64,000 nucleotides of DNA. Origin: Allobosea sp. BH3 (GTDB lineage: Bacteria > Pseudomonadota > Alphaproteobacteria > Rhizobiales > Beijerinckiaceae). Positions within the stretch are counted from its first letter, which is position 1. Every line of letters starts with the position of its first letter. The notes below the pieces were generated by a model. It made no database searches. It saw nothing but the letters and a program-made list of their open reading frames with translations, and was not told the origin of the DNA. The stretch is from positions 372,001 to 436,000 of the forward strand of contig NZ_JAIMCA010000006.1 of the NCBI RefSeq assembly GCF_025499465.1, given 5' to 3'. Below, in pieces: positions 46,584 to 58,680 of the stretch. The translations under genes were made by a program, and so were the position numbers.

Positions 46584-47812
46584 CCACGGTGGCGGCAGAG
46601 AGCCCGAGCCGCTGGCTCGTAGTCGGCTCCGCCGCCCTCATGCTGGCGCTGGTAATGGGCACCCTCGTCAACGGCCTCACGGCATTCTTCATCCCGATGC
46701 AGACGGCGGAGGGGTGGGCCCGCTCGGACGTCGCGGCCATCAACAGCCTCGGGCTGCTCGGCCTCGCCGTCGGCAGCGTGGTGATGGGCTTTGCGTCGGA
46801 TCGCATCGGCATCCGCGCCATTTGCCTGATCGCCGTCACGGCGGTCGGCACCTGCCTGCTTCTGACGGCGCAGGCGCAGACGCTCTGGCAAGTGTACCTC
46901 ATCTTTTTCCTGGCCGGCGCCCTGGGCGGCGGCACGCTCTTCGCCCCTCTCTTTGCGACGGTCGGCAACTGGTTTCCCGGCATGGCAGGGCTGGCCATCG
47001 GCATTGCCGCGGCCGGCCAGGCCGTCGGGCAAGGCGGCGTGCCATTCCTCTCCGCGGTCCTGATCGAGCGCCTGGGCTGGCGTGGCGCGATGACGACGCT
47101 GGGCATCATCATCCTGGCGGTGCTGATCCCGCTGGCGGCATTCATGCGCGACGCGCCAGCGGCGGGCGTCGCGGGCAACGCGGCGCAGCCCCCGCCCATC
47201 ACAGCGTCCGTCGCGGTGCCTCTGCTCAGCGCGGCGGTGTTCTTCTGCTGTGCGTGCATGGCCCTGCCGCTGATGCATCTGATGCCGCTGATACAGGGCT
47301 TCTGCATCGCGGCGACGGAGGCCGGCGGGGTGATGCTCGCCATGCTGCTCTCCGCCATTCTCGGCCGCATCGCTTACGGCAAGCTCTGCGACATGATCGG
47401 CCCGATCCGGTCCTGGGCCGTCGCCTCGTTCCTGCAGACGGCCGGCGTGGTGGCTTTCACACAGTTCACGTCACTGCGGGGGTTCCTGATCTTCGCCGTC
47501 CTATACGGCTTCGCCTATGCAGGCGTCATGACGAGCCTGCTCGTCTCTGCCCGGGCCCTGACGCCAGCCCAAAGCAGGGGCGGGTTCATGGGCATTATCC
47601 TGGCCTTCGCATGGCTGGGGCACGCTTTCGGCGGGTATCAGGGCGCCGCCGTCTTCGACCTCACGGGCAGCTACGCGAACGGCTTCCTGATCGGCGCCGC
47701 CGCCGGCGCGCTCAACCTCGCCCTTGTGGGACTGCTTCTGCTGCTCGCCCAAGGGCCCGACGGCACCTCCCCGCGCCTGGCAAAAGCCCGGCAGGGCCAG
47801 CCCGCCGAATGA
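46580..47812 (+). CDS. MFS transporter (OFA/monocarboxylate-like)
   Basis: A 410-residue 12-helix transporter. MGTLVNGLTAFFIPMQTAEGWARSDVAAINSLGLLGLAVGSVVMGFASDRIGIRAICL is the loop 2-3 region, and VGNWFPGMAGLAIGIAAAGQAVGQGGVPFLSAVLIERLGWRGAM is typical of the oxalate/formate and monocarboxylate group. The long loop QPPPITASV separates the halves. Translation is coupled to the MddA-like gene. Substrate unknown; organic acid or a sulfur compound are possible. Confidence 0.82.
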   Translation: MTTVAAESPSRWLVVGSAALMLALVMGTLVNGLTAFFIPMQTAEGWARSDVAAINSLGLLGLAVGSVVMGFASDRIGIRAICLIAVTAVGTCLLLTAQAQTLWQVYLIFFLAGALGGGTLFAPLFATVGNWFPGMAGLAIGIAAAGQAVGQGGVPFLSAVLIERLGWRGAMTTLGIIILAVLIPLAAFMRDAPAAGVAGNAAQPPPITASVAVPLLSAAVFFCCACMALPLMHLMPLIQGFCIAATEAGGVMLAMLLSAILGRIAYGKLCDMIGPIRSWAVASFLQTAGVVAFTQFTSLRGFLIFAVLYGFAYAGVMTSLLVSARALTPAQSRGGFMGIILAFAWLGHAFGGYQGAAVFDLTGSYANGFLIGAAAGALNLALVGLLLLLAQGPDGTSPRLAKARQGQPAE

Positions 47813-48156
47813 CCATCGACGCGCCCCTTTCGACGCCCTTGCCGAACGGCCTCTCCCGGGTCAGCAACCCGTCGCCTCGCCCGGCAGGAGGCGCAAGGCC
47901 CGTTCGCCGCGAGACCCATGGCGAGGCTGCGGATCCGCCCGGCAAGAGGCAGCCCCGCCCCCGTGAACCCGAATTCCCGCAGACGGTCTGCCTGCCGCTT
48001 CTAACCCGTCGAGGCGAGGCCGCGGACATGATCCATGGCCGGTTGGCGCAGCCTGCGCTGACCCTACGGCATAAGCCGGATCAACTGTGTCATTCTATTG
48101 ATCCGGCAGTGATCTTGGGTCAATTTGCTGTCGTAGCTTCAGTGCGGACGAGACGT
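47813..48156. other. Intergenic stretch upstream of the cyclase gene
   Basis: About 344 bp without a convincing gene if the cyclase starts at 48157. An in-frame ATG at 48028 could extend it by 43 residues, leaving 215 bp. The part before 48100 is GC-rich, then ATCAACTGTGTCATTCTATTG is AT-richer and may hold the promoter. No clear palindrome. Confidence 0.5.
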
Positions 48157-49929
48157 ATGCTCGAGCAGCGACAGCCCCGCCAGATCGCTACCGTCGTCTC
48201 CGTGGATGCAGTGGGCTACTCCAAGCTCATGCACGCCGACGACGAACTTGCGCTCCGCCTGTTCGACGAGCGTCGTGACTTGATCAGAAGCGCGATCGAG
48301 AGCGCGGGCGGAAGTATATTCAGCGCCGTCGGCGACAGCCTCATGGCACTGTTCAGCAACCCCATCGTCGCCTTGAACGCGACGATGCAATTCCAGGAAG
48401 AAATCCGCAAAAGGAACGCAGCGGCACCGGCCGATCAGATCATGTCGTTTCGCGCCGGGATCAATGCAGGGCCTGTGGTCATCCGCCCGGACGGAATCTT
48501 CGGGGACGCCGTGAACATCGCCGCCCGCGTGCAGGAATTCTCGTCGCATGGCGGCGTCGCGCTGGCCGAAGCGGCCTTTCTACAAATCGATGAGCGGTTC
48601 GATCTTCCGTTTACCGATCTCGGCGCCTTTCACCTGAAGAATATTCCGATGCCGGTGCGCGTCTTCCTGATCGACAGATCTTACCGGGACAATTCTTTGT
48701 CTCCGCTATTGCGCAGCTGCGCGCCCCCGAAAATGACGGCCGGCGACTTCGAACAGCTTCCCGCCCTGGCGGTGCTGCCATTCCAGAACCGGACCGGCGA
48801 TCCTGCTCTCTCGTTCCTTTGCGACGGCATTGCCGGCGACATCCTGCTCGGTCTCGCCAACACGCGCTCCATCCCCGTGATCGCACGGGATTCGAGCTTC
48901 CAGTTTCGAGAGCCCTCCTCCCTGCCGACCGCGGCCATCGGCAGCCTGCTGGGAGCACGCTATGTCGTTTCCGGCGCCGTTTCGGGCGATATCGAGCGCA
49001 TCAAGGTGGAAGCGTCGCTCGCCGACAGCTCGAACTCGCGCGTGATCTGGGCCGGGCGGCTGGAGCGCCGTCTCGATGAGGTGCAGCGCCTGCAACGTGA
49101 GCTTGGGGGCGAAATCGTCTCGCGGCTGGAGAGCGAGGTGGACCGCGTCGAGCAGGTCAGGACCTTCCAGGTGCAACCGGAAGCGCTCTCGACCTGGCAA
49201 TTGCTGAGGCGCGGCCGCTGGCACATGCAAAGACGCACCTCCGGCGACACCGCCCAGGCGCTCGCCTATTTCGCGCGGGCCCATGACGAGGATCCGAACT
49301 CCTGCGCAGTGCTCGCCGAGCTCGCCTGGTGGCACCTCTGGAAAGCCTGGCTCAATTTCGCGGATCGCGAAGAGCTGAAGATCGTCTTCGACTACGCCCG
49401 GCGCGCCTCGCGCCTGGACGGGCTCGACGCGCGGCCTCACTGCTATCTCGGCTTCGTCGACATCCTCGAAGGCCGGCCGGAGCAGGCTCTGGACCACTTC
49501 CATCGGGCCATCGACATCAATCCGAGCTTCTCATTGGCGAGGACAGGGCTGGGCAGCGCGAAGGGATTGCTGCTGGACACCGAGGAAGGCATTTTCCAGC
49601 TCCGGGAAGCCATCAGGCTGAGCCCCTTCGAGACCTATCTCTTCCATAACCTCGGAGAGCTGGCTGCCGCCCACACGATCGACGGCGACTGGGAGGCGGT
49701 CATCAAGGCGGCGAACCGCTCCCTGTCACTGGCGCCGAACTATTTCTATTCCAGCTACCTCAAGACAGGTGCGCTCGCGCGTAGCGATCGGTTCGACGAG
49801 GCGCGGCAGGAGGCGAGGCTGTTTCACACCCGCCATCCCGGCTTCGAGCCCAAATGGATCGAGTGGATTCCGTTTCGCGACCGCTCCGTAAACCAGCGCA
49901 TGATCGCGAATTTTCAGCTCGCTGGATAA
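48157..49929 (+). CDS. Class III adenylate/guanylate cyclase with TolB-like and TPR regions
   Basis: A 590-residue protein. The cyclase domain (about 10-180) has VVSVDAVGYSKLMHADDE with two metal-binding Asp positions (D in VSVDA, D later in SAVGDSLMALFS), then FRAGINAGPVVIRPDGIFGDAVNIAARVQEF. Next, LAVLPFQNRTGDPALSFLCDGIAGDILLGLANTRSIPVIARDSSF is a TolB N-terminal-like domain (about 205-330), and residues 350-590 are TPR-like repeats (ALAYFARAHDEDPNSCAVLAELAWW, ALDHFHRAIDINPSFSLARTGLG). The set is typical of Rhizobiales cyclases. It probably makes cAMP in the cytoplasm. ATG 48157 was taken; a 73-bp gap leads to the P450-peroxidase gene on the same strand. Confidence 0.9.
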   Translation: MLEQRQPRQIATVVSVDAVGYSKLMHADDELALRLFDERRDLIRSAIESAGGSIFSAVGDSLMALFSNPIVALNATMQFQEEIRKRNAAAPADQIMSFRAGINAGPVVIRPDGIFGDAVNIAARVQEFSSHGGVALAEAAFLQIDERFDLPFTDLGAFHLKNIPMPVRVFLIDRSYRDNSLSPLLRSCAPPKMTAGDFEQLPALAVLPFQNRTGDPALSFLCDGIAGDILLGLANTRSIPVIARDSSFQFREPSSLPTAAIGSLLGARYVVSGAVSGDIERIKVEASLADSSNSRVIWAGRLERRLDEVQRLQRELGGEIVSRLESEVDRVEQVRTFQVQPEALSTWQLLRRGRWHMQRRTSGDTAQALAYFARAHDEDPNSCAVLAELAWWHLWKAWLNFADREELKIVFDYARRASRLDGLDARPHCYLGFVDILEGRPEQALDHFHRAIDINPSFSLARTGLGSAKGLLLDTEEGIFQLREAIRLSPFETYLFHNLGELAAAHTIDGDWEAVIKAANRSLSLAPNYFYSSYLKTGALARSDRFDEARQEARLFHTRHPGFEPKWIEWIPFRDRSVNQRMIANFQLAG

Positions 49930-50002: not shown

Positions 50003-53000
50003 ATGTTCAAATTCGACCCGAAGTACTTCGCAGGCGTGAAGAAGGCTCAAGCCGAGCTCCCACTGGATGGCCCTGTGCCTCCCTTCGATATCGAGAGGAT
50101 GCGTTCGCGCGGCTTCCTCGCGCGTGCCTTCGGTTACCTCGTCGAGCACCCGGATTGGTGGCTGGGGTTCCTCCGACAGGTCTTTCCGCGCCTGCGGGCC
50201 GGACGATTCCTGCTGCTGACGCGCAACAGCGATGTCAGCGAGGTTCTGCGGCGCCAGGCCGATTTCGAGACCCCCTACGGCCCCGAGATGACCGAGTTTT
50301 CGCGGGGTACAAACTTCATCCTCGGGATGACCGACGGGGAGGACTACCAGCGCCTCAAATCGGTCATCCTGGCCGCATTCCCGCCCGGCGAAGTCGAGGA
50401 TCGGGTTCGGCCCATCGCGGCTGCCGCGGCGAAGGAAATCGTCGATCAGGCGCCGCAGCGCATCAATACCAGAGATCTCTTCTGCGACGTCTCCTCCATC
50501 ATCTGCAGGGACTATTTCGGCCTGACGTTCAACAGCGACCGCGAGTTTGCAGAATGGGGCATGGCGCTCAGCACGCTGTTCTTCGGTGACCCGACGGCAA
50601 GCCCGACCGTCAGGGAACTGGCGATCGCCGCTTCCCGCGAGATGCACGCGATCATCGATCTTTCGATCGATCGCGCCCTCGGAGGCGGCGGAGCGGACAC
50701 GCCTGTCGGCCGCCTCGCCGACGCCATGAATCGTGGCCGCATCAGCCGGGCGGAGGTCCAGGCCTCGTTGCTCGGAATGATCACCGGCTTCGGCCCGACG
50801 ACGCTTCTGGCGGGCTGCAACTGCCTCGACGTGGTGCTGTCCCGCGGGGAGATGCAGGCAGAGGTGAAGGCTGCGATCGACGACCGCGACGACCAGCGGC
50901 TCGACAAGGCCATTGTCGAAGCCATGCGTTTCAAGCCGATCTGGATCAGCCCCTGGCGCTATGCGCGGACCGATCAGACGATCGGCACAGCAAGCGGGCG
51001 GCCCTATACGATCAAGGGCGACACGGTCATATGGCCAGCGACGCGATCAGCCATGTTCGACGGCCGCGCCGTCTCCGACCCGTGGCAGTTCAAGCCAGGC
51101 CGGCCAAAACAAGATTCGATGATCTTCGGTCATGGGATCCACGAGTGCATCGGCGCCGTGCTGGCGCGTGTGCAGACCGCGGAGTGTTTCCGGGCCTTGT
51201 TTTCCCGCGCAGGTGCGCGTCGCGCCAAAGGTCGCACGGGCAGGCTCAAGCGGCTCGGGGCCTATCCTGGAGCGCTCTTCGTCGAGTTCGAGAATGTCGG
51301 CCTGCAGTCGATGGTGACGGTCATCGTTCCCGTCCGGGCAGGGGCCAAGAAGGAGCGCATCGAGGCGCAAATCGCGCAGTTTTCCGGCCCGATGAAACAG
51401 CAGATCCGGGCGCTGGGCACGATTCACTTTGCTTCGATGTCCGTCATCGAGGCGGCCCCGATGTCTGCGGACGTGCCGAACCTGCATCTGCTGCTGGAGC
51501 TCAGCGGCGATGGAAGCAATCAGGCTGTTCTCAGCGGCATCGCAAAAGCCCTTGGCGGCCCCTTGAGGCAAATCCTGGCGGATTCTGCGGTGGAGGTGAT
51601 CGGTCCCGACCTATCGGCAGTCCTGACGAAATTCTCTCGCGATGTCTCGCCGGAACTCGGGAGCCGCAGCGGCCTCGTCTTCAACGGCACGCCCGGTCAC
51701 AGCGTGAAGCGCATCCGGCGTGAGAGCGTGCTGGCGAAGAAGGCCCTTGCTATCGTCGAAAGACAATCCGGGCGCCCTGGCATGGACGCGGCAAGCATTC
51801 TCCAGGCCGTTCGAGACGAGCTGAGGCGCACGAAGAGGTTTTCCTGGGCATTCATTCCGGTCCCGAACGGGCTGGACGATGCCCCGAAAGGGAGCTGGAG
51901 CGCGCTCCTCCGCACGCTGGCCGCGAAGTCGTTCTCCCTGACCGGCGCGGGCGCCATCCTCGCCCTCTCGGTACTGATCTACTGGCTATGGTTCGGCTTC
52001 ACGGCGCCCAGCCTGCTCCATCTCGCCGGGCGGGGCTTGATGGCGCTGATCCTGTCGATCCTCGGCATTGCCGTTCTGATCGCAGCCGCCGTCGGCGGCG
52101 TGATCTGGCGGCTGCGGAAGCTGGAGGACAGATCGGCGATGTCGGAAAGCGCCATTTCGCTGGGCGCTCTCGAAGAACTGCAACGGCGTGAGGACAAGGA
52201 TCGGCAGAACCATATGACGGCCGTCTCCTCGATCAAGGCCGGCCCTCTGCGAGAGCTGCTTCTTCGCTTTGTCTTCTACGTCATATCGATCACAGCGACG
52301 CATATCTTCCGGCCGGGGTTTCTTTCCAGCATCGGCACGATCCATTTCGCGCGCTGGGTTCGTGTCCCGGGCACAAACAAGCTTGTCTTCCTGAGCAACT
52401 ATGGAGGCAGCTGGGAGAGCTACCTCGAGGATTTCATCACCAAGGCCACGGCGGGCCTCACCGGAATCTGGAGCAATACGGAGGGGTTTCCGCCCACGCG
52501 CTTCCTGTTCCTGGACGGCGCACGCGACGGCGATCGCTTCAAGCGCTGGGCGAGAACGCAGCAGATCCCGACCCGCTTCTGGTACAGCGCATATCCCCGG
52601 CTTTCGACGACTCTCATCCGGAAGAACGCGCTGATCCGGCAGGGCATCTGTTCGGCGAGCCTGGCCGAAGCGCGCGACTGGATCAGCTTGTTCTCATCGA
52701 CCGAACGAAAGCCGTTCACGAAACTGAACGCGGTCCAGCGCCTGCTGCTCCCCGCTCCTGCTCCCGAAGAAACACTCGAGCATGGCGAGATCCAGTCGAT
52801 CGCATTCGGCCCGATGGGGCGCCTCTCCCGGAGCAGGATGCTCACTTTCAGCATCCCGGACGGCCTCAACCGGGCGAGCCGCGCGCTCTGGCTGAAGTAT
52901 CTCTCCGAAAGCGTGTCATTCGGCGAAATGGGAGCGAGCGAGAGCGCCATGATCGCGATGTTCGGGCCCGGCGCGCTCGCCCGGCTCGGGCTCGATTTCG

Positions 53001-54229
53001 GACTCGCCAGCTTCCCACCCGCCTATCAGCAGGGCATGGGCCACTGGCATCGCAGCCGCATCCTCGACGATACGGGCGAGAGCTGCCCCAAGAAATGGAT
53101 CTGGGGCTCAGAGAAAGATCCGGTCGACGTCGTCATCAATTGCTACGCGCGCAACAAGACCATCCTCAAGAAAATGATCGCGAAGTTGGTGGCCGATTCC
53201 AAGGCTGCGGGCATCGAACTCGTCCATGAAATCGAGCTTCATGTCGACCGTCCGCAACCCAGATCCGGCAAGGGCCAGAGGCCCCCCGGCAAGGAGCCGT
53301 TCGGCTTCGTCGACGGCGTTTCCCAGCCCGTCATCCGCGGGAGCGGGCGAGCGGGTGGGCGCCAGGTGCCCTCGATGCATGTGGTGAATGCCGGCGAGTT
53401 CCTGTTCGGCTATCGAGACGAGCATGGCTTCTATCCCCCCTCGCCCACGGTCCCCGGCGACTCCGATCCTCGGGGCATATTGAGAAAGATCAGCCCCGAC
53501 GGCAGCATCACGAGCGGCCCGGCCGCGGTGCGCGATTTTGGGCGGAACGGCAGCTTCGTCGTCGTTCGCCAGATCCGGCAGCACGTCGACATCTTCGACG
53601 ATTATTGCCGGAAGGCCGCAGGCCAGGTCTCGGCGCTGACGCAAAAGCCTGTGCCCGACGAATGGGTCGCCGCCCGCATCGTCGGCCGCTGGAAGGATGG
53701 ATCGTCGCTGGTCAGAAGCCCCGGCAAGCCCACCGGAGACGCTCCCGACAACCATTTCACCTTTGGAAGCGAAGACCCGCAGGGCCTCCGATGCCCGCTC
53801 GGAGCCCATGTCCGGCGCTCCAATCCGCGCGATTCGCTGGACACCGATCTCGACACTCAAATCCGCATCACCAAGCGCCACCGCATTCTCCGCGTCGGCC
53901 GGAATTATATCGCAGCGGACGAGAAAGGAGCGACGGAGCGAGGCCTGCTGTTCATGTGCCTGAATGCCAGCATCGAGAGGCAGTACGAGTTCATCCAGCA
54001 AACCTGGATGGCCGCCGGCAATTTTCATGGATTGCGGGAGGAAAAGGACCCGCTGATCGGTAATCACGGGAACGGTTCTCCCGGCGGTCGCTTCGCGATT
54101 CCGACATGGGAGGGGGCGCTGGCCCTGACGGGGATGCCTTCCTTCGTCACGACCCGAGGCGGCGGCTACTACTTCCTGCCGAGCAAATCGGCACTGCGAT
54201 ACATGCAGTCCAGGCTCGGCGAAGTTTAG
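50003..54229 (+). CDS. Cytochrome P450 - transmembrane - DyP-type peroxidase fusion protein
   Basis: A 1,408-residue two-haem protein in one uninterrupted frame. P450 domain about 30-430: K-helix ExxR at E306-R309 and haem loop FGHGIHECIG with Cys382. Its I-helix reads GFGPTT (262-267), lacking the usual acid before Thr. A linker domain (435-600) contains GTIHFASMSVIE. Two membrane segments lie about 647-668 and 678-701. A second GTIHFARWV unit (778-) leads to a DyP-type peroxidase with GFVDGVSQP (catalytic Asp1104), CPLGAHVRRSNPRD (axial His1269) and HRILRVGR (distal Arg about 1297). A normal P450 has some 400 residues and a DyP 300-500. An even number of helices puts both haem domains on the same side. 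The reaction is unknown; P450 peroxygenation paired with peroxide chemistry is an inference. Confidence 0.92.
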   Translation: MFKFDPKYFAGVKKAQAELPLDGPVPPFDIERMRSRGFLARAFGYLVEHPDWWLGFLRQVFPRLRAGRFLLLTRNSDVSEVLRRQADFETPYGPEMTEFSRGTNFILGMTDGEDYQRLKSVILAAFPPGEVEDRVRPIAAAAAKEIVDQAPQRINTRDLFCDVSSIICRDYFGLTFNSDREFAEWGMALSTLFFGDPTASPTVRELAIAASREMHAIIDLSIDRALGGGGADTPVGRLADAMNRGRISRAEVQASLLGMITGFGPTTLLAGCNCLDVVLSRGEMQAEVKAAIDDRDDQRLDKAIVEAMRFKPIWISPWRYARTDQTIGTASGRPYTIKGDTVIWPATRSAMFDGRAVSDPWQFKPGRPKQDSMIFGHGIHECIGAVLARVQTAECFRALFSRAGARRAKGRTGRLKRLGAYPGALFVEFENVGLQSMVTVIVPVRAGAKKERIEAQIAQFSGPMKQQIRALGTIHFASMSVIEAAPMSADVPNLHLLLELSGDGSNQAVLSGIAKALGGPLRQILADSAVEVIGPDLSAVLTKFSRDVSPELGSRSGLVFNGTPGHSVKRIRRESVLAKKALAIVERQSGRPGMDAASILQAVRDELRRTKRFSWAFIPVPNGLDDAPKGSWSALLRTLAAKSFSLTGAGAILALSVLIYWLWFGFTAPSLLHLAGRGLMALILSILGIAVLIAAAVGGVIWRLRKLEDRSAMSESAISLGALEELQRREDKDRQNHMTAVSSIKAGPLRELLLRFVFYVISITATHIFRPGFLSSIGTIHFARWVRVPGTNKLVFLSNYGGSWESYLEDFITKATAGLTGIWSNTEGFPPTRFLFLDGARDGDRFKRWARTQQIPTRFWYSAYPRLSTTLIRKNALIRQGICSASLAEARDWISLFSSTERKPFTKLNAVQRLLLPAPAPEETLEHGEIQSIAFGPMGRLSRSRMLTFSIPDGLNRASRALWLKYLSESVSFGEMGASESAMIAMFGPGALARLGLDFGLASFPPAYQQGMGHWHRSRILDDTGESCPKKWIWGSEKDPVDVVINCYARNKTILKKMIAKLVADSKAAGIELVHEIELHVDRPQPRSGKGQRPPGKEPFGFVDGVSQPVIRGSGRAGGRQVPSMHVVNAGEFLFGYRDEHGFYPPSPTVPGDSDPRGILRKISPDGSITSGPAAVRDFGRNGSFVVVRQIRQHVDIFDDYCRKAAGQVSALTQKPVPDEWVAARIVGRWKDGSSLVRSPGKPTGDAPDNHFTFGSEDPQGLRCPLGAHVRRSNPRDSLDTDLDTQIRITKRHRILRVGRNYIAADEKGATERGLLFMCLNASIERQYEFIQQTWMAAGNFHGLREEKDPLIGNHGNGSPGGRFAIPTWEGALALTGMPSFVTTRGGGYYFLPSKSALRYMQSRLGEV

Positions 54230-55248
54230 GCCGCCAGCCTCGCGGTCGGCATCTCCAGCAGAAAGCACAGGCCGGAGGACTCCCAGCTCGATGTCAGGGT
54301 GGCGCCAAGCTGGGCTCGGGCGGCCCGCTCGACCAGTACGCTGCCGAAGCCTTGCCGGGTCGGGGCCGATGCGACCGGAGGCCCGCCGCGTTCCGCCCAT
54401 CGGAGGCTCGTCTGTTCCGGGGAGGAAACGACCTCGATGCGCACGCTCCCTTCCGACACCGAGAGGGCGCCGTATTTGACGGCGTTGGTCGCCAGTTCAT
54501 GGACGACGAGCGCGATTGCCGTCGAAGCGGAGCGGCCGACGGCGGCATCGTCCCCTTCCACGACGATGCGCTCCGCCCGGTCTCCGACATAGGGCGAAAC
54601 GAGCCGCGTCAGCAGACCCCGGAGGGTGTCGCTTCCGTCGGAGCCGACCTTGTCGAGCACCAGGCTGTGCGCCCGATGCAAGGCGCCAAGCCGCCCGACG
54701 ACCTCGTCCGCGAAACGCGCCGCCCCCGGCTCCGACCGCGCCGACATCGTCACGAGGCTGCTGACGACCGTGAAGATGTTTGCGATCCGGTGCTGCAGTT
54801 CGCGGGCGATAAGTTCCCGCTGCTCGTCCGCCGATCGCCTGGCGGTGATGTCGATATGTGCTCCGACGAGCCTGAGCGCATTGCCCTCGCCGTCCCGCTC
54901 GATCTCGGCCTTGGCCAGGATCCAGCGCACGTCTCCGTCAGAGGGGCGTATGATGCGGTATTCCACCTCATAGTCCCGCTCCCGGCCGGAAACCGTGTTC
55001 TCAAAATGGCCGACGACCCGCTCCCGATCCAGCGGGTGGATGCGCGCGACCCAGTCCTCATGGCTTTCGGTGGCCGATTCCGGTGGCAGCCCATGCACGG
55101 CGAGATATTCAGGAGAGCGCCGGTTGCGGAATTCTCCGCCGCGAAGGTCGACCTCCAGCCCACCGATCTGGCCGATCCGCTGCACACGCGCCAGCTCCGC
55201 CTCGCGGGCGCGCAGCTGCCTTAAAGCCTCATCGAGCGGCACACACAC
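54226..55248 (-). CDS. PAS domain HWE/HisKA_2-type histidine kinase
   Basis: A 340-residue soluble sensor kinase. Residues about 25-140 form a PAS domain (GGLEVDLRGGEFRNRRSPEYLAVHGL, WVARIHPLDRERVVGHFENTVSG, EYRIIRPSDGDVRWILAKAEIERDGEGNALRLVGAHIDIT). The dimerisation box is RELIARELQHRIANIFTVVSSLVTM (HisKA_2/HWE with ELQHR). The ATPase has ALVVHELATNAVKYGALS and GFGSVLVERAARAQLGA. It converges with the fusion gene and overlaps its stop by four bases. Start is GTG 55248 or GTG 55242; both are close. Response regulator not adjacent. Confidence 0.88.
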   Translation of the reverse strand: MCVPLDEALRQLRAREAELARVQRIGQIGGLEVDLRGGEFRNRRSPEYLAVHGLPPESATESHEDWVARIHPLDRERVVGHFENTVSGRERDYEVEYRIIRPSDGDVRWILAKAEIERDGEGNALRLVGAHIDITARRSADEQRELIARELQHRIANIFTVVSSLVTMSARSEPGAARFADEVVGRLGALHRAHSLVLDKVGSDGSDTLRGLLTRLVSPYVGDRAERIVVEGDDAAVGRSASTAIALVVHELATNAVKYGALSVSEGSVRIEVVSSPEQTSLRWAERGGPPVASAPTRQGFGSVLVERAARAQLGATLTSSWESSGLCFLLEMPTARLAA

Positions 55249-55596
55249 CTCATATCAGGGCCGGAACAAGCATTCCATGCAGACCATGCTTCGCGTTGTT
55301 AGGCAATTCGCAATCGCAACCAGGCCGTGGAGCGCTCCAGATATTCTCGATCGACAACCACTCCTGCCAGCCTCCACACCAGAACCGCATCCATCAGAGC
55401 GGAGCCGGAATCGAATTCCGGCCTGCGGCCGAAGCCGCTACACAAGGCATGGTGCGACATTACTGCGGTCGCGGCGCCGTGATCGGCGGCATGCGCGAAA
55501 CCACATGACGGGCTCCAAACGCGCCTTGACGCCTCTCCTGCAGAGTTTCACTATTCCAAGTTGAATGACGACGTGTCGTTCGCCTCGGAGGTTGAG
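55249..55596. other. Intergenic stretch between kinase and formate dehydrogenase genes
   Basis: 348 bp, divergent promoters expected. Near 55526 a sigma70-like promoter is visible (separate entry). No gene is supported. AT content is higher than average around 55250-55340. Confidence 0.6.
55526..55554 (+). promoter_or_regulatory. Candidate sigma70-type promoter for the formate dehydrogenase operon
   Basis: TTGACG (55526-55531), 17-bp spacer, then CACTAT (55549-55554). The -35 box is near consensus and the -10 box is weak. It lies about 40 bp before the chosen ATG at 55597. Confidence 0.4.
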
Positions 55597-58500
55597 ATGC
55601 TACATGAGCTCTCGCGCCGCCAGTTCATGAAAGCCGCAGGAGCGGGGCTGGGCGGATCTGCCGTCGCCGCGCTCGGGTTTGGCGGTGCCGAAGAGGCACT
55701 CGCGCAGGCCGTGCGGCCCTTCAAGCTGGCTCGCACCACGGAAACGCGCAACACCTGTCCTTACTGCTCCGTCGCCTGCGGCGTGATCATGTATGGCCTG
55801 GGCGACAAGTCCAAGAACGCCCACCCGGCGATCATCCATATCGAGGGCGACCCGGACCACCCGACCAATCGCGGAACGCTGTGCCCGAAGGGCGCCGCCC
55901 TGCTCGACTTCGTCCACTCCGAGACGCGGACCAAGGTCCCGCAGTATCGTGGACCCGGCGAGAAGGCGTTTCGCCAGATCAGCTGGAACGACGCGCTCGA
56001 CCGCATCGCGCGGCTGATGAAGGACGATCGCGACAAGAACTTCATCGCCAGGAACCAGGACGGCGTGACGGTCAACCGCTGGTTGACCACGGGCTTCCTG
56101 GCCGCTTCGGCCACCACCAACGAGACGGCCTTCCTGACCTACAAGGTCGTGCGAAGCACCGGGATATTGGCGTTCGACAACCAGGCGCGCGTTTGACACG
56201 GACCGACGGTGGCCAGTCTGGCCCCAACATTCGGTCGCGGTGCGATGACCAACTCCTGGACGGACATCAAGAACACCGACCTCGTCATCATCATGGGCGG
56301 CAACGCCGCCGAAGCGCACCCTTGTGGCTTCAAATGGGTCACTGAGGCGAAAGCCCAGCGTGGCGCCAAGCTGATCGTCGTCGATCCGCGCTTCACGCGC
56401 TCGGCCTCGGTCGCGGATTTCTACGCGCCGATCCGACAGGGCACCGACATCGCCTTCCTGCTCGGGGCGATGAAGTACTGCATCGACAACGACAAAATCC
56501 AGCACGACTATGTGCGTGCGTTCACCAACGCGCCCTACATCGTGAAGGAGGGCTTCGGCTACCAGGACGGCCTGTTCACCGGCTATGACGAGGCCAAGCG
56601 CGACTACGACCGCTCGAGCTGGGAATACGAACTCGGTCCGGACGGCTATGTCCAGGTCGACGAGACGCTGCAACATCCGCGCAGCGTCTACCAGCTCCTG
56701 AAGAAGCACATCGCGGCCTATACGCCTGAGATGGTGGAGCGCATCTGCGGCACGCCGAAGGACAAGTTCCTGGCGATCTGCAAGATGATCTCGGAGTGCT
56801 CCGCGCGCGACAAGACGATGACGTCGATGTACGCGCTCGGCTGGACGCAGCACTCCAAGGGCTCGCAGAACATCCGCTCGATGGCGATGCTGCAATTGCT
56901 GCTCGGCAATATCGGCGTGCGCGGCGGCGGCATGAACGCGCTGCGCGGGCACTCCAACATCCAGGGCCTGACCGACATCGGCCTGATGTCGAACCTGATC
57001 CCGGGCTACCTCACGCTGGGGACCGACAGGGAGGTCGATTTCCAGACCTACATGTCGACGCGCGGCTTCAAGCCGCTGCGTCCGAACCAGACGAGCTACT
57101 GGCAGAACTACAAGAAGTTCATGGTGAGCTTCCTGAAGTCGATGTGGGGGAAGGCCGCAACACCCGAGAACGACTTCGCCTATCAGTGGCTGCCCAAGCT
57201 CGATGTGCCCGGCTACGACATGCTCCGGTACTTCGACATGATGCATCAGGGCAAGGTCAACGGCTATTTCTGCCAGGGCTTCAACCCGCTGCTGTCCCTG
57301 TCCAATCGCGGCAAGGTCTCGGCATCGCTGTCGAAGCTGAAATTCCTGGTAGTGATGGACCCGCTGCAGACGGAGACGGCGCGATTCTGGAAGGACGAGG
57401 GCGTCCATAACGACGTGAAGCCCGAGGCGATCCAGACCGAGGTCTTCGAGCTGCCGACCACCTGCTTCGCCGAAGACGAGGGCTCGCTGGTCAATTCCGG
57501 CCGCTGGCTGCAATGGCACTGGCCGGGCCAGGAACCTCCGGGCGAGGCGAAGGCCGATACCTGGATCATGGCGCAGATCTTCCAGCGTATGCGCGCGCTC
57601 TACGAGAAGGAGGGAGGGGCCTTCCCGGACCCGATCCTCAATCTCCACTGGCCCTATCGCCTGCCGGACGATCCGCAGCCGGACGAAATGGCCAAGGAGA
57701 TGAACGGCTATGTCGTCTCGACAGTGACCGACCCCGTCGACCCGACAAAGATCGTGCTGGAGAAGGGCAAGCAGATCGACACCTTCGGGCAGTTGCGCGA
57801 CGACGGCTCGACGGCCTGCGGCTGCTGGATCTACTCCGGCTCCTGGACCGAGCGGGGCAACATGATGGCCCGTCGCGACACCAGCGACCCGGCCAATACC
57901 GGTGCCTACGCGAACTGGGCCTTCTCCTGGCCCGCGAACCGGCGCATCCTCTACAACCGCGCCTCGGCCGATATCGACGGCAAGCCCTGGGATCCCAAGC
58001 GCAAGCTGATCGAGTGGAACGGCACGGCCTGGACCGGCTACGACGTGCCGGACATCGCGCCGACCGCCAAGCCGCAGGATGTCGGCCCGTTCATCATGAA
58101 CCCCGAGGGAACGGCGCGGCTGTTCTCGCGCGCCATGATGAAGGACGGCCCCTTCCCGGCCCATTACGAGCCGTTCGAGAGCCCGGTCGCCAATGTCCTG
58201 GCGCCCAAGATCCGCGGCAACCCCGCCGCGCGCATCTTCAAGGACGACCTCGCCGCGCTCGGGACTTCGGACAAGTTCCCCTATGCGGCGACCTCCTACC
58301 GCCTGACCGAGCATTTCCACTACTGGACCAAGCATGTCTGGGTGAATGCGGTGCTCCAACCTGAGTTCTTCGTCGAGATCAGCGAGCAGCTGGCCGCGGA
58401 GAAGAACATCCAGAAGGGCGGCTGGGTGAAGGTCTCCTCCGCCCGCGGCGCGGTGTATGCCAAGGCCGTGGTGACCAAGCGCATCAAGCCGATGATCTGC

Positions 58501-58680
58501 GACGGCAAGACCGTCCATGTCGTCGGCATCCCGCTCCACTGGGGCTTCACCGGTGCGGCCAGGAAGGGCTTCGGCCCCAACAGCCTCACCCCGTTCGTCG
58601 GCGACGCCAACATCGAGACGCCCGAGTTCAAGGCGTTCCTGGTGAATGTCGAGCCGTCCAACGGGCCGGCCACGAGCTAG
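55597..58680 (+). CDS. fdnG: Formate dehydrogenase-N alpha subunit, selenoprotein (in-frame UGA = Sec200)
   Basis: A 1,027-residue molybdo- or tungsto-selenoenzyme that oxidises formate in the periplasm. Tat signal [15 protein letters not shown] at the N-terminus. FeS cluster ligands are C54, C57, C61 and C96 (CPYCSVACG...LCPKG). The frame passes a TGA at 56194-56196, giving [11 protein letters not shown][18 protein letters not shown], the same context as the selenocysteine of E. coli FdnG, and continues through [25 protein letters not shown] and [13 protein letters not shown] 55597 has GGAGGTTGAG upstream. A standard gene finder would split it at 56196. It is followed by the beta subunit after 10 bp. 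Confidence 0.95.
56194..56236 (+). promoter_or_regulatory. Bacterial SECIS element for selenocysteine insertion at UGA 56194
   Basis: Outer stem GACCGA (56201-56206)/TCGGTC (56231-56236). The upper minihelix GG(T)GGCC/GGCCCC has a bulged T at 56210 and loop AGTCT (56215-56219). The minihelix starts 11 nt after the TGA. A bulged U, GU-containing loop and this spacing are the known requirements for SelB binding in E. coli fdhF/fdnG. Confidence 0.9.

Follow-up and report, generated by a model that had tools for sequence, protein, structure and literature searches.

There is interest in cytochrome P450 fusions as self-sufficient biocatalysts. P450 BM3 and CYP116B are self-sufficient P450–reductase fusions, and the CYP152 enzymes are stand-alone proteins. 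To our knowledge, the physiological role of bacterial DyP-type peroxidases is largely open. In the fungal DOX–CYP fusions, the P450 part works without a reductase, according to two reports (PMC13049297, PMC4420034). In the CYP152 peroxygenases, which run on hydrogen peroxide, the acid–alcohol pair is replaced by Arg-Pro, as described in PMC5818669 and PMC5377825. Here we describe a gene which encodes a P450 and a DyP-type peroxidase in one chain. It is located in a stretch of 64,000 nucleotides from contig NZ_JAIMCA010000006.1 of Allobosea sp. BH3; this whole stretch is called the window hereafter. A natural fusion of a P450 and a peroxidase, for which peroxide may be sufficient, would be valuable as a new design.

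The interpretation that we prefer, to which we give a probability of about one half, is that this gene belongs to a conserved, apparently undescribed family of membrane-anchored di-haem enzymes, in which both haems would use peroxide on a substrate close to the membrane, perhaps a lipid. The original prediction, made from the letters of the window, knew of no established bacterial P450–DyP family, and this still holds: the fusion is conserved in many genomes, and no description of it was found in the open-licence literature, which leaves its absence from print unproven. What goes beyond that prediction, and is described below, are the partner genes for a cyclase and a CRP-type protein, the versions that are split or in the reverse order, and the kinship of the two alpha/beta domains.

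The P450–DyP chain and its two haem sites

The gene runs from an ATG at position 50003 to a stop codon at 54227–54229 and has no internal stop; counted without a start codon, the open frame has 1,441 codons. The claim that one uninterrupted frame of 1,408 codons joins a P450 to a DyP is borne out by the frame itself and by Pfam, PDB-sequence, profile and fold matches. The same open reading frame (ORF) is present in independent genomes, including complete replicons, which rules out an assembly or frame artefact joining two genes. A search of the organism's own genome returned the fusion once and, elsewhere, one weak P450 only.

The N-terminal half matches Pfam p450 with an E value of 1.1e-8 (34.7 bits, for a cut-off of 22.8). 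A phmmer search against PDB sequences relates it to the P450 EryK (2jjn, E 3e-17), and a family profile built from 30 sequences of this half matches solved P450s with an E value of 6.7e-33. EryK is also the best Foldseek match (3zkp, E 2.6e-14) of the AlphaFold2 model of residues 1–440, whose predicted local distance difference test score (pLDDT) is 90. The Cys signature FxxGxxxCxG, the ExxR motif and the P450 fold are all present, as expected of a member of the cytochrome P450 superfamily.

The second half barely exceeds the cut-off of 20 bits for Pfam Dyp_perox_C (PF20628; 20.5 bits, E 4.5e-4), and its match to NCBIfam TIGR01413 (Dyp-type peroxidase; E 2.2e-25) scores 89.6 bits, below the curated cut-off of 100.5. 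The phmmer search against PDB sequences gives the DyP chain 8re3 with an E value of 4.1e-37, and the corresponding family profile (30 sequences) reaches solved DyPs at 8.1e-67. Foldseek with the AlphaFold2 model of this half (E 4.7e-26) returns the DyP from Deinococcus radiodurans (8re3/8re2) as the closest solved structure. The Asp of the GxxDG motif, the proximal His, the distal Arg and the DyP fold are all found, and the domain can be assigned to the DyPs with two marginal curated-model scores.

The original prediction had proposed checks by domain hidden Markov models and by structure prediction. Both Pfam domains are indeed above their cut-offs, the DyP one by little. The model of the P450 half matches P450s; that of the second half matches DyPs and is only of moderate quality (mean pLDDT 78, predicted template modelling score 0.55). 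The residues named beforehand (Cys382, ExxR, Asp1104, His1269 and Arg1297) are at the expected positions and are conserved across the family, for which 88 fusion rows were compared (83 distinct and 5 duplicates). Judged by the sequences, the two haem sites are intact throughout the family and do not vary. No flavin or ferredoxin reductase domain is detected in the chain by Pfam, whose matches up to E 1 are limited to p450 and Dyp_perox_C.

The family was delineated by scanning GTDB genomes with the window protein as the query; 423 relatives were confirmed and the best 80 were kept. In the search for homologues with both domains, which had also been proposed, 78 of these best 80 proved to be single-ORF fusions, including two that are cut by contig ends (L093 and L094). 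In the two others, from Bradyrhizobium elkanii (L106) and Microvirga (L107), the P450 and DyP genes are side by side. The loci having been found with the window protein, all the linkage counts are biased towards its relatives. With this scope, fusion or side-by-side placement with a DyP is conserved over a wide range.

The I helix and the predicted membrane anchor

It is mainly because of its I helix that the P450 is thought to use peroxide, and not O2 and a reductase. The register of this helix was taken from five printed HMMER alignments of the family with PDB P450s. The acid position corresponds to residue 264, which is V, G, A, T or I, and the alcohol position is Pro265 in all the 87 fusion rows that have letters there; the D/E-T pair of canonical monooxygenases is therefore missing from the fusion family. 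In the printed alignments, EryK (Ile) and 5vws (Leu) also lack the acid but retain the Thr. The loss of the acid–alcohol pair points to peroxide use by both haems. The peroxide-linked oxidation that had been proposed receives indirect support, from the I helix and from the fact that no redox-partner gene is present among the inspected neighbours.

Pro occupies the alcohol position in 16 of the 20 P450s that are adjacent to a DyP or fused to it in the reverse order. Among five close relatives with no DyP on their stretch, four have Glu-Thr and one (L173) has Ile-Pro-Thr, and five more distant control P450s have Glu/Asp-Thr in four cases and Val-Thr in one; a truncated P450 (L176) was excluded from this list. 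The loci that were fetched after the pattern had been seen behave similarly: Pro is present in all five DyP-linked P450s (two of which, L186 and L187, are near-identical), and Glu-Thr in both P450s that have no nearby DyP. In the genome of one of these two (L199), a different contig carries a DyP relative.

The two membrane helices that had been predicted between the domains are supported by the family-mean hydropathy and by helices in the model. A simple hydropathy scan of each row detects 1 to 5 segments, and two in 55 of the 88 rows. A third candidate helix (residues 748–768) has a family-mean hydropathy of just about 0.5–1.0 and was treated as interfacial. The two-helix hairpin, which is followed by basic residues, would place both haem domains in the cytoplasm, as inferred from the sequences.

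The two alpha/beta domains, FD and MID, are mutually related (hhalign 93.6%, pairwise E 2e-7). Unfused MID proteins are below every Pfam cut-off and have no NCBIfam match, and the search for PDB relatives of MID gave a best E value of 0.036, which is not meaningful.

A possible mechanism is as follows. The hairpin and the flanking alpha/beta domains would hold the P450 and DyP domains together on the cytoplasmic side of the membrane, and the two haem domains would share one compartment. The P450 would be independent of a reductase by the peroxide route, either as a peroxygenase or as a hydroperoxide-rearranging enzyme. The DyP would use or form the same peroxide, and the two haems may act one after the other on a substrate that is hydrophobic and perhaps a lipid. 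The module might be controlled by, or feed, cyclic AMP (cAMP) signalling.

Partners, neighbouring genes and distribution

The distance matrices of the P450 and the DyP are correlated (Mantel r 0.71, 0 of 999 permutations, 27 loci). Trees were built on a chosen subset of 50 DyP rows and 37 P450 rows. In the P450 tree, the DyP-linked P450s cluster with a support of 88/93, which is below the firm-branch mark, and the unlinked L173 is among them.

The association also exists in other forms. An alphaproteobacterium (G581) has a single ORF of 1,007 residues in the reverse order, with the DyP first and the P450 last (L166:710-3733, − strand), and another proteobacterium (G1082) has a single ORF of 900 residues which joins a DyP and a catalase-like protein (L192:6688-9390). 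Related MID–DyP pairs frequently have a catalase-like partner in the place of the P450, and gene sets consisting of "catalase family", MID and DyP genes are found on plasmids of Agrobacterium, Sphingobium, Methylorubrum, Acinetobacter and Rhodococcus. Among 16 further loci, a DyP is present in 14; the partner is a P450 in five, a catalase-like protein in six, neither in three and both in none. In the earlier locus set, only L133 has both: on this Methylorubrum populi plasmid (L133:746-6719), the genes of a ferredoxin, a reductase, a Glu-Thr P450, a catalase-like protein, MID and DyP are consecutive. Two loci with a P450 match in another frame beside a MID–DyP ORF (L108 and L160) were not counted. 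The exchange of the P450 for a catalase-like protein fits a shared peroxide chemistry, and this alternation makes a shared lipid-peroxide chemistry directly testable. Fatty-acid genes adjoin three of the five catalase-annotated plasmid modules inspected; a lipid substrate is proposed because of these genes and of the predicted membrane anchoring, and this proposal is weaker than that of peroxide use.

The partner can be lost, since P450-less Rhizobium forms (L007, L138 and L139) sit close to the fusions in the DyP tree, in which L144, whose P450 match is only at E 1e-5, was treated as P450-less. These three Rhizobium forms are on plasmids, where the genes beside them encode CHAT-domain, nuclease, phospholipase D-like or restriction proteins; such surroundings resemble those of conflict or defence systems.

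The fusion gene is accompanied by a gene encoding a class III nucleotide cyclase with TPR repeats and usually by a CRP-type gene, as the gene order of the loci establishes. A cyclase–TPR relative is present at most 450 nucleotides upstream in 74 of the 78 fusion loci (L077 and L079 lack it and two contigs are cut), and in 73 a CRP/FNR-type gene lies downstream, in convergent orientation (it is missing in L071, L075, L088 and L101, and one contig ends). In 27 diverse loci these are the only recurrent neighbours, shadow ORFs of them aside. In Novosphingobium and Sulfitobacter, a TPR gene without a cyclase match is in the upstream place.

The start codon of the cyclase–TPR gene of the window is uncertain: the mechanical ORF begins at 46714 and the scanned version at 48142 (48139 for the Pfam scan). 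The protein matches PF00211 and has the two metal Asp and the Asn/Arg pair of class III cyclases, which we take to be D22 and D65, and N125 and R129, respectively (numbering from 48142). Each of these residues is conserved in 73 of 74 rows, from which a partial neighbour (L086) was excluded.

Downstream of the fusion gene, the CRP-type gene is absent from the window and a histidine kinase gene occupies its place. This gene, of the HWE type, is at 54226–55248 on the − strand and has 4 nucleotides in common with the end of the fusion gene. No close copy of the CRP partner was found elsewhere in the genome, where regulators are just 24–31% identical. Neither a ferredoxin nor a P450-reductase gene is present among the Pfam-scanned neighbours in the window or among the annotated genes within 8 kb in L003–L005. 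Further along (55561–58680, + strand), a formate dehydrogenase-like frame, presumably resembling FdnG, is interrupted by an in-frame TGA, as in selenocysteine-containing formate dehydrogenases.

Table 1. Features of the fusion gene and of its upstream partner, with positions in the window
Feature	Position	Strand	Evidence or remark
P450–DyP fusion gene	50003..54229	+	1,408 codons; single-ORF relatives in 78/80 kept loci
P450 domain, residues about 1–430	50003..51292	+	Pfam p450; AlphaFold2; Foldseek
I-helix motif G262-F263-G264-P265-T266, acid–alcohol pair changed to x-Pro	50786..50800	+	87/87 rows with letters keep G262, F263, P265, T266
ExxR (E306, R309)	50918..50929	+	88/88 rows
Cys382, expected haem thiolate ligand, in FGHGIHECIG	51146..51148	+	88/88 rows
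First alpha/beta domain, FD, residues 438–625, related to MID	51314..51877	+	Model, profile comparison
Predicted membrane helix 1, about residues 645–663	51935..51991	+	Family-mean hydropathy 1.89; model helix 642–664
Predicted membrane helix 2, about residues 678–697	52034..52093	+	Family-mean hydropathy up to 2.56; model helix 671–710
MID domain, residues 738–918, with GTIHFARW...SNYGGSWESYLEDFI	52214..52756	+	Separate protein beside DyP in distant relatives
DyP-type peroxidase domain, residues about 926–1402	52778..54208	+	Pfam, NCBIfam, family profile, Foldseek
Asp1104 of the DyP GxxDG motif	53312..53314	+	88/88 rows
His1269, expected proximal haem ligand of the DyP domain	53807..53809	+	87/87 rows with a letter
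Arg1297, expected distal Arg of the DyP domain	53891..53893	+	87/87 rows with a letter
Class III nucleotide cyclase with TPR repeats, upstream partner	48157..49929	+	Pfam Guanylate_cyc and TPR

The fusion family is found in many Mesorhizobium genomes and in other alphaproteobacteria; three genomes that lack it share a genus with four carriers. Proteins from loci of the same order as the window coincide, beyond residue 40, with those of named Mesorhizobium and Hyphomicrobiaceae records, which puts the window in the order that includes Mesorhizobium. A sample of 397 genomes of the same order as the window contains the single-ORF fusion in seven (the window's own included) and a split pair with nearly full coverage in two more (G307 and G015). 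Another single-ORF fusion, of 1,527 residues, is in G1080 (L190), and G272 carries an adjacent P450–DyP pair of another subfamily (L024). PLSDB has nine records in which one place covers at least 80% of the query, from Pararhizobium (62% identity), Novosphingobium aromaticivorans pNL2 (33%) and Sulfitobacter (seven records, about 30–32%). One Sulfitobacter plasmid match (H10), which is annotated as three proteins, was left out of closer inspection. The two-enzyme design is easily overlooked, as the product names in the plasmid records inspected are "cytochrome P450", "Dyp-type peroxidase domain-containing protein" or "hypothetical protein".

None of 19 other genomes of the genus (3) or the family (16) has a full-length fusion, while the Pararhizobium neighbour and fusion proteins are 69% and 62% identical to the cyclase–TPR and fusion proteins of the window, respectively. 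This suggests that the pair may have come to the window by horizontal transfer. The DyP tree places the window protein as the sister of Pararhizobium L003 (99/96). The guanine plus cytosine (GC) content of the fusion region is 0.636, compared to 0.66 on either side, and its GC at third codon positions is like that of two of the four neighbours compared.

Alternative explanations and described systems

Several observations weigh against a membrane-anchored di-haem enzyme that runs on peroxide. The loss of the acid is by itself weak proof, as EryK and 5vws, which both keep the Thr, lack it too. Two DyP-linked P450s (L019 and L112) keep the canonical Asp-Thr, L159 and L166 show other patterns, and the P450 of L173 has its Ile-Pro-Thr with no DyP on its stretch, where the contig ends 1.3 kb downstream. 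The same-side topology is deduced from hydropathy and charge alone. The fatty-acid context is that of the catalase-like branch, two of the three cases (L008 and L132) are nearly the same cassette, and the catalase-like label comes from NCBI product names, with no Pfam or NCBIfam match. P450-less DyP relatives exist and many distant DyPs have neither partner, so that a DyP can in some cases do without a second haem protein. Moreover, the carboxylate-binding Arg of CYP152 is V, G, A, T or I in the fusion family, which is thus not a plain CYP152-type fatty-acid enzyme.

The P450 could instead be an ordinary NAD(P)H-dependent monooxygenase, and the DyP would merely clear the peroxide that leaks from its cycle. 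Peroxide leakage is a known problem of P450s, and the fold is nearest to that of ordinary bacterial monooxygenases; in some of these, too, the acid residue is missing. We consider this improbable: the acid–alcohol pair is invariantly lost in the fusions, in correlation with DyP linkage, and no ferredoxin or P450-reductase gene is among the inspected or recurrent neighbours, whereas ferredoxin and reductase genes do accompany the Glu-Thr P450 of the Methylorubrum module. A reductase could still be supplied from elsewhere in the genome. The idea that the system is mainly a sensor, whose haem P450 or DyP would detect peroxide or lipid peroxide and whose cyclase–TPR and CRP proteins would convert the signal to a cAMP response, is in keeping with the frequency of these genes (74/78 upstream and 73/78 downstream) and with the intact cyclase residues (73/74). 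It appears less probable still, because the catalytic residues of both haems are conserved in full, the upstream TPR gene of Novosphingobium and Sulfitobacter has no cyclase match, and the downstream CRP gene is missing in the window and in 4 of the 78 loci.

A special case of the reading that we prefer is a convergent counterpart of the Ppo/linoleate diol synthases, in which a haem domain would form or handle a lipid hydroperoxide and the P450 would isomerise it, without a reductase, to a diol, an epoxy alcohol or an allene-oxide-type product. The membrane anchor is predicted, the alternative partner is catalase-like, catalase-related enzymes include hydroperoxide rearrangers, and fatty-acid genes are beside part of that branch. 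But we know of no DyP that is a fatty-acid dioxygenase, the domain order is reversed, the peroxidase families are unrelated, and fatty-acid genes are not conserved neighbours of the fusions themselves. The logic of a peroxidase-type haem domain next to a self-sufficient P450 is the same as in the fungal enzymes (PMC13049297, PMC4420034). We hold this explanation as rather unlikely. A broader picture is equally tentative: a modular bacterial family of di-haem enzymes of lipid peroxides, in which a constant MID–DyP core would be combined with a P450 or a catalase-like partner, in the chain or in the operon, for oxidised membrane lipids and under cAMP control, in convergence with the fungal Ppo oxylipin synthases.

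The peroxide-driven, membrane-anchored di-haem enzyme that we prefer can be compared with five described systems. The fungal Ppo/linoleate diol synthases likewise have a peroxidase-type haem domain and a P450 in one polypeptide. Their DOX is N-terminal and belongs to the peroxidase-cyclooxygenase superfamily, whereas the fusion described here is bacterial, ends with a DyP and has extra alpha/beta domains and a two-helix anchor; Pfam detects only p450 and Dyp_perox_C in it, and no N-terminal haem dioxygenase of the peroxidase-cyclooxygenase type. In P450 BM3 and CYP116B, too, the P450 shares its chain with another redox enzyme, but the partner is here a peroxidase, and no flavin, iron–sulphur or other reductase domain was found with Pfam.

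With the CYP152 enzymes (P450 BS-beta, SP-alpha and OleT), the fusion shares the loss of the acid–alcohol pair and the Pro at the alcohol position. It differs from them at the acid position, where V, G, A, T or I replaces the Arg, so that only the Pro of the Arg-Pro replacement is present, and the window protein has no NCBIfam CYP152 match. The DyPs from Deinococcus radiodurans (8re2/8re3) and Anabaena (AnaPX, 5c2i), which we take to be class V DyPs, have the same fold, GxxDG Asp, proximal His and distal Arg; unlike them, the fusion has 1,408 residues, is predicted to be membrane-anchored and has MID before the DyP. The "catalase family", MID and DyP gene sets of plasmids contain the same MID–DyP pair with a second partner of the haem type, which is catalase-like instead of a P450.

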